In this document: positions 5,431 through 6,382 of the stretch, in pieces
Layout: every line of letters begins with the position of its first letter
Position numbering within the stretch: position 1 is the first letter of the stretch
Source of the DNA: an uncultured SAR86 cluster bacterium
GTDB taxonomy: Bacteria; Pseudomonadota; Gammaproteobacteria; Magnimaribacterales; Magnimaribacteraceae
Length of the DNA: 64,000 nt
Assembly: GCA_902517565.1 (NCBI GenBank)
Contig: CABYCU010000002.1
Location: forward strand, 115,428-179,427
Reading direction: 5' to 3'
Notes under the pieces: model-generated
What the model was told of the DNA's origin: nothing
Database searches by the model: none
The model's input: only the letters and a program-made list of their open reading frames with translations
Translations under genes and position numbers: made by a program

Positions 5431-5856
5431 CTATTTAAGGAACCTTTTCATCGCATCTAATGTCTTTGAACTTACATGATGCTCTATACCTTCACTATCT
5501 ATCTCAGCATTAGCCTTATCAACGCCTAACTTGATCAAGAAATCTAAGACAATTTCATGTCGCTTTTTACTTTTTTTTGCGAGTTTATATCCTTTCTCAG
5601 TGAGCTCGATAGGTTTGTAGGATTGTGTGAGCAAAAGATCTTGATCGTTCAATCTTTTAACAGTGCGCGAGACGGTTACATGGCTAACATTAAAGAAGCG
5701 CGCCAAATCTAGTACTCTGCACTCTCCTGTTTCATCAATTAGGTCCATGACAGCTTCGACATAATCTTCTGCAGTCTCACTAGCATGACGAGTTCGGGTT
5801 TGGGAAAAAGGGACTGAACGCGCCTTGATCTTCTCTTTTGCCTTTTTCTTTTTCAT
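5431..5856 (-). CDS. mntR: DtxR/MntR-family manganese-responsive transcriptional regulator
   Basis: wHTH (GECRVLDLARFFNVSHVTVSRTVKRLNDQDLL) plus DtxR-type metal/dimer region (KRHEIVLDFLIKLGVDKANAEIDSEGIEHHVS). Confidence 0.88.
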   Translation of the reverse strand: MKKKKAKEKIKARSVPFSQTRTRHASETAEDYVEAVMDLIDETGECRVLDLARFFNVSHVTVSRTVKRLNDQDLLLTQSYKPIELTEKGYKLAKKSKKRHEIVLDFLIKLGVDKANAEIDSEGIEHHVSSKTLDAMKRFLK

Positions 5857-5876
5857 AACAAATTTAAATTATACTC

Positions 5877-5905
5877 TTGACATCATCCGTAGCCATTGCT
5901 ACATT
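5877..5905 (+). promoter_or_regulatory. Putative sigma70 promoter of the MntX-like gene
   Basis: TTGACA (5877-5882), 17-nt spacer, TACATT (5900-5905). Predicted +1 near 5912, the GTG start codon. Confidence 0.65.
5889..5902. promoter_or_regulatory. Putative MntR operator (dyad GTAGC-CATT-GCTAC) in the mntR / MntX-like intergenic region
   Basis: GTAGCCATTGCTAC; core TAGCCATTGCTA resembles the E. coli mntH MntR box (AAACATAGC-N4-GCTATGTTT). Confidence 0.75.
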
Positions 5906-5911
5906 TGTCCC

Positions 5912-6382
5912 GTGAAAGATTACCTAAAATACGATGATATAAAGGTTTTTAAGTACGAGAATCTTTATCTAGCGATTATTTACACGATTGGTCATATTCT
6001 AATTGCAATGACTTGCAATAGGATAATTACTGGTGCCTCCCTAGATATGGCAGCTGCAGATGCTTTTGTCGAACCGATAATCAATGGCTTCTGGTTTTAT
6101 TTTCTTCTGGTTTACTTGAAAAAGATATTCGTCAAGAAAATTGAGTCAAATGACCTAACATTCGTAAATCCGAATCAAATAGGTTTTTTGTTAGCTTTTA
6201 TCTATACAGTTGGTCATATTCTAATTGCTATGACATGTAATAGATTACTTACAGGTGCACCTCTGAATCTTGCAGCTATAGACGCTTTCGTTGAGCCAAT
6301 AATTAATGGTTTCTGGTTTTTTCTGCTATTTGAGATTGTAAATAAATTTAAAGCAAAGAAAGCACTCGGCACCGCAGCATAA
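5912..6382 (+). CDS. Internally duplicated DUF2061-like small membrane protein, candidate MntX-type Mn2+ transporter
   Basis: Two near-identical repeats (YTIGHILIAMTCNRIITGASLDMAAADAFVEPIINGFWF / YTVGHILIAMTCNRLLTGAPLNLAAIDAFVEPIINGFWF). GTG start at 5912 preferred over the ORF-track start at 5825, which overlaps mntR. Confidence 0.7.
   Translation: MKDYLKYDDIKVFKYENLYLAIIYTIGHILIAMTCNRIITGASLDMAAADAFVEPIINGFWFYFLLVYLKKIFVKKIESNDLTFVNPNQIGFLLAFIYTVGHILIAMTCNRLLTGAPLNLAAIDAFVEPIINGFWFFLLFEIVNKFKAKKALGTAA

Follow-up and report, generated by a model that had tools for sequence, protein, structure and literature searches.

A dyad in the promoter of an mntX-like gene is a probable MntR operator in SAR86 bacteria

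SAR86 bacteria are among the most abundant bacteria of the surface ocean, have few regulators and are hard to culture. Could a short inverted repeat between a gene for a manganese-responsive regulator, mntR, and a divergent gene for a small membrane protein be the switch by which one controls the other? The locus lies in a 64-kb window (the whole stretch of 64,000 nucleotides analyzed) from an uncultured SAR86 bacterium, and its closest named counterparts belong to SAR86 genomes obtained from single cells and metagenomes. The mntR ATG (5856, minus strand) and the GTG at 5912 are separated by a 55-nt gap (5857-5911, read directly). The features are as follows.

5431-5856, minus strand: mntR, encoding a 141 amino acid E. 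coli-type Mn-responsive regulator of the DtxR family (NCBIfam NF008273, Pfam, PDB relative, metal ligands)
5868-5873, minus strand: -10 element of mntR, TATAAT (read directly; conserved in divergent loci with one dyad)
5877-5882, plus strand: -35 element of mntX, TTGACA (invariant across ten one-dyad loci)
5883-5899, plus strand: spacer of the mntX promoter, 17 nt (read directly)
5885-5902, plus strand: proposed MntR operator, ATCCGTAGC-CATT-GCTAC (symmetric part 5889-5902; dyad conservation and co-occurrence with mntR)
5900-5905, plus strand: -10 element of mntX, TACATT (invariant in the ten loci; its TAC is common to the right arm of the dyad)
5912-6382, plus strand: mntX-like gene, 156 amino acids, GTG start at the predicted +1 (Pfam PF09834, repeats, predicted helices)

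Direct reading bore out the positions of the gap, hexamer, spacer, dyad and reverse TATAAT given in a preliminary description of this DNA. That description placed the dyad within the spacer. Eleven of the dyad's 14 bases do lie there, at the downstream end of the spacer; the other three are the TAC that opens the -10 hexamer. As in an MntR box, the dyad thus overlaps the core promoter, and the core TAGC-N4-GCTA, at 5890-5901, is near the regulator gene. The mntX promoter ends 6 nt upstream of the GTG. The mntR promoter has ATGGCT at the -35 place and no good -35 element, and the dyad overlaps this -35 region. This type of switch is already known; the layout is unusually compact.

The dyad at 5889-5902 is not a product of chance. 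The exact form GTAGCN4GCTAC (here GTAGC-CATT-GCTAC) occurs once in the window versus 0.03 expected from dinucleotide shuffles, and the chance of finding it in a 55-nt gap is about 3e-5. The looser TAGCN4GCTA was rejected as evidence by itself because 0.62 occurrences are expected per window. It is present at 25 places in the 1.2-Mb assembly (of a genome 75% complete), where no further MntR targets were found, as every other occurrence checked is inside a reading frame. The perfect CCGTAGCN4GCTAC is found in the assembly only at this site.

The mntR product matches the NCBIfam MntR equivalog model (NF008273/PRK11050) with 161.8 bits, above the curated cut-off of 153, and contains the Pfam domains Fe_dep_repress and Fe_dep_repr_C. 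Its best PDB relative is E. coli MntR (2h09). Six metal ligands (D31, E34, H100, E122, E125 and H126) are shared with the E. coli and B. subtilis proteins and are invariant in ten sequences; their counterparts in the binuclear Mn site of B. subtilis MntR are D8, E11, H77, E99, E102 and H103.

The preliminary description had called for the dyad to be conserved in the orthologous gaps of related genomes, and it is. We searched 204 genomes of the SAR86 order and found mntR in 14, in all of which (14/14) the dyad adjoins it at the same position. The mntX-like gene accompanies both in 13 of the 14; in the remaining genome (L046) it was not found within the 2019-base stretch examined. Another 27 distinct mntX-like relatives, mostly 67-80% identical, have neither a neighboring mntR nor the dyad, and their promoters are of other kinds (TAGAAT/TAAAAT). 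No mntR was found in the 12 genomes searched among these dyad-less carriers. We did not count a locus with the dyad and no adjacent mntR (L057, from a bin labelled Opitutia, Verrucomicrobiota) because it is probably a mis-binned SAR86 contig; its mntX and operator are SAR86-like. As the dyad is kept wherever mntR exists and is missing where mntR is missing, it is very probably the switch of this sensor, although the pattern represents few independent changes (one to two on the tree). A tree of 41 proteins nests dyad-less L059 and L062, whose genomes contain no mntR, within the clade of dyad carriers (support 100/98). This position points to a probable joint loss of regulator and operator on at least one occasion.

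In ten loci with one dyad, both hexamers and the dyad (14/14 columns) do not vary at all, in contrast to 43% identity over the six bases that follow the -10 and 42% over the 16 bases upstream. The strict conservation of this first dyad is partly promoter conservation. ATTATA, the reverse of the mntR TATAAT, is common to all divergent loci with one dyad. It is altered in L051 (ATTATT), in which mntR is downstream of mntX in tandem, and in L057 (ATTATC), which has no adjacent mntR. Five lineages (L056, L058, L060, L061 and L046) have a second CCGTAGC-N4-GCTAC exactly 25 bp downstream; two of these lineages have a decayed first dyad. The second dyads retain the same arms around N4 centers of TTAA, AAAG, TAAT, TTAT or AATT. 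Arms that are kept around a free center suggest operator-like behavior. Sites in cooperative MntR arrays are 19 bp apart (PMC11275975; E. coli mntS). With 25 bp between the two dyads, MntR is more likely to bind them independently than cooperatively.

The core is also present at some mntR genes outside SAR86. Of 15 MntR loci in other Gammaproteobacteria, five have TAGC-N4-GCTA upstream of mntR in sequence that is not part of a long frame (expectation for the 15 loci taken whole, 0.69), which ties the core independently to this regulator subfamily; in the other ten, no such dyad was found within the stretch examined. The E. coli operator quoted in the preliminary description is correct, the sequence upstream of mntH in MG1655 being AAACATAGCCTTTGCTATGTTT (L113). 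At both mntH and mntS of E. coli, which are under a regulator of the same subfamily, the TAGC-N4-GCTA core overlaps the promoter or lies close to it, and mntS, which adjoins mntR in E. coli, has two copies with 19-bp spacing (L113, L114), unlike the 25 bp of the SAR86 relatives. The arms are GTAGC/GCTAC with CC on the left in SAR86 and AAACATAGC in E. coli. GTAGC thus replaces the E. coli ATAGC, and instead of the outer bases AAACA...TGTTT SAR86 has ATCCG...CATTT, so that the half-sites match at 6/9 and 7/9 positions (counted by eye). From this comparison the SAR86 site would be a variant MntR box that is not identical to the E. coli box. Its target also differs, a DUF2061 gene rather than mntH or mntS, and the SAR86 mntX promoter is predicted to be leaderless, unlike E. 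coli MntR targets. In B. subtilis, MntR operators that overlap the promoter repress, and at mntA and mntH a single MntR dimer site on a sigma-70-type promoter acts as a molecular doorstop (PMC11275975). The SAR86 arrangement resembles these two operators in having a single dimer site over a promoter of this type, but the DNA sequence differs and the Firmicute regulator is about 38% identical to SAR86 MntR. Taken together, the presence of the dyad with mntR, its absence without mntR and the core upstream of mntR in other families favor the operator proposed in the preliminary description, and none of the computational tests able to contradict it did so; this comparative support comes from one order and a small sample of the class.

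The gene on the other side of the gap was described as coding for a duplicated membrane protein, and our analysis agrees. Its product matches DUF2061 (Pfam PF09834, E=6e-6) and contains two DUF2061 repeats with 71% identity to each other; four membrane helices are predicted (AlphaFold2, pLDDT 81). No relative was found in PDB sequence and fold searches, and there was no match in the NCBIfam models. A plasmid search gave no match. Single-domain DUF2061 proteins of about 70-100 amino acids are common in other Gammaproteobacteria; double-DUF2061 relatives were absent at E<=1e-8 from 367 sampled genomes of the gammaproteobacterial class outside SAR86. The protein is most likely a small metal importer. 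MntX of marine bacteria including SAR11 is reportedly a small inner-membrane Mn importer controlled by a Mn regulator (Green, Todd and Johnston 2013, ISME J). The likeness would be that of a small inner-membrane protein under a Mn regulator, and the name MntX-like is used here provisionally, with the Roseovarius and Vibrio proteins (ISM_02005 and VC1688) as references. The Roseovarius mntX gene is reportedly under Mur, not MntR, whereas mntR is beside the SAR86 gene.

The start of mntX at GTG 5912 was predicted to be leaderless, and two patterns in the sequences support this. All ten loci with one dyad keep 6 nt between the -10 and the start codon, though the six bases vary, and no Shine-Dalgarno sequence precedes the GTG. 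Across 384 kb of the genome, a -10-like hexamer is exactly 6 nt before the ATG in 18 of 186 first genes versus about 3 at neighboring distances, and only 1 of these 18 has a Shine-Dalgarno sequence. The loci with two dyads have a leader instead. About a tenth of first genes in the window and in contig C1 of its genome (G000) look leaderless by this 6-nt distance, and leaderless genes are apparently common in SAR86.

We consider it highly probable, on comparative grounds, that the dyad serves the neighboring MntR as an operator, through which Mn-MntR would repress mntX and probably also mntR. We infer the following course for MntR binding, for manganese as the signal, for repression, for the start site and for transport. 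When Mn is ample, a Mn-bound MntR dimer would occupy CCGTAGC-N4-GCTAC, covering the spacer and the first bases of the mntX -10. The geometry and the characterized MntR operators suggest that it would keep RNA polymerase off the mntX promoter, so repression of mntX is likely by analogy. When Mn is scarce, the repressor would leave, and transcription from the GTG itself would give a leaderless mRNA for the double-DUF2061 protein. At the mntR promoter the bound dimer would cover the -35 region, and mntR is therefore probably autoregulated.

The sign of the effect at mntR is less certain than that at mntX. MntR on the dyad might repress mntX and either activate mntR or leave it alone. This appears rather improbable, although the mntR promoter has no recognizable -35 element, a bound dimer would be at that position, and one MntR site overlaps the -35 in the activated mneP/mneS promoters of B. 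subtilis (PMC11275975). Activation there requires several cooperatively bound dimers with 19-bp spacing (PMC11275975), whereas SAR86 loci have a single site or a pair 25 bp apart, and steric repression is simpler. If the regulator is MntR, its cargo could still serve something other than Mn uptake, such as nickel or iron supply, or efflux. We think this unlikely but keep it in view: genes for Ni-SOD, KatG and a TonB receptor are near mntX in relatives, single-DUF2061 genes belong to the listed iron/Fur-responsive genes of Caulobacter (PMC3751524) and feature in a table from a Shewanella study of Fur/SsoR iron regulation (PMC12442407), and a Vibrio protein named MntX is up 12-fold with Mn (PMC13274385). 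Against it are the Mn-type ligand set in MntR and the location of the operator within the promoter, which fits repression at plentiful metal, as expected of an importer.

Other alternatives dispense with the repressor. The overlap with the -10 hexamer and the conservation of the entire promoter block would also suit a strong conserved sigma-70 promoter that is symmetric by accident. We regard this as very improbable because the spacer is as strictly conserved as the hexamers, the extra dyads downstream of the -10 retain their arms, mntR-less relatives use promoters without the dyad, and the same core occurs at other mntR genes. An RNA hairpin, as an attenuator or part of a riboswitch, is predicted with a 5-bp stem but is hardly credible: the folding is not unusual (z -1.18), there is no Rfam match, and the arms are invariant rather than covarying. 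The dyad would also be transcribed from neither promoter because it is upstream of both predicted starts.

With the dyad as MntR operator, the site is a concrete candidate for a one-operator Mn regulon in SAR86 and would tie the membrane domain DUF2061 to Mn control. Tentatively, and with slightly less than even confidence, we suggest that double-DUF2061 proteins are a SAR86 family of Mn importers and that mntR, operator and mntX form a self-contained cassette gained and lost as a unit. If so, the same importer would be expressed from a plain promoter in lineages that have no mntR, which would make Mn control optional in these streamlined ocean bacteria. SAR86 lineages offer natural comparisons of the same mntX gene with and without its regulator.

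The mntR-mntX pair in the window (5431-6382) is 89-90% identical to the pair in G117, a SAR86 genome from a different family. Most genomes of the same genus are without this mntX, and neighboring genes differ between lineages. This distribution may reflect either horizontal movement or mis-binning.

Many SAR86 genomes have mntX after a gene for a TonB-dependent receptor (L051, L059, L062, L064, L069, L071, L075 and L086), a possible outer-membrane partner for metal uptake. In most of these loci katG follows mntX; in L064 it was not seen within the stretch examined. A nickel superoxide dismutase gene is near mntR/mntX in several lineages (L051:4262-4720, L054, L055 and L068). In L075 (SAR86A) and G098:C2 mntX is present twice, the copies lying about 3 kb from each other on either side of a duplicated katG start. 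Single-DUF2061 genes are also present on three freshwater-metagenome contigs titled Rickettsia typhi (L099, L103 and L105), an organism name that is probably wrong.
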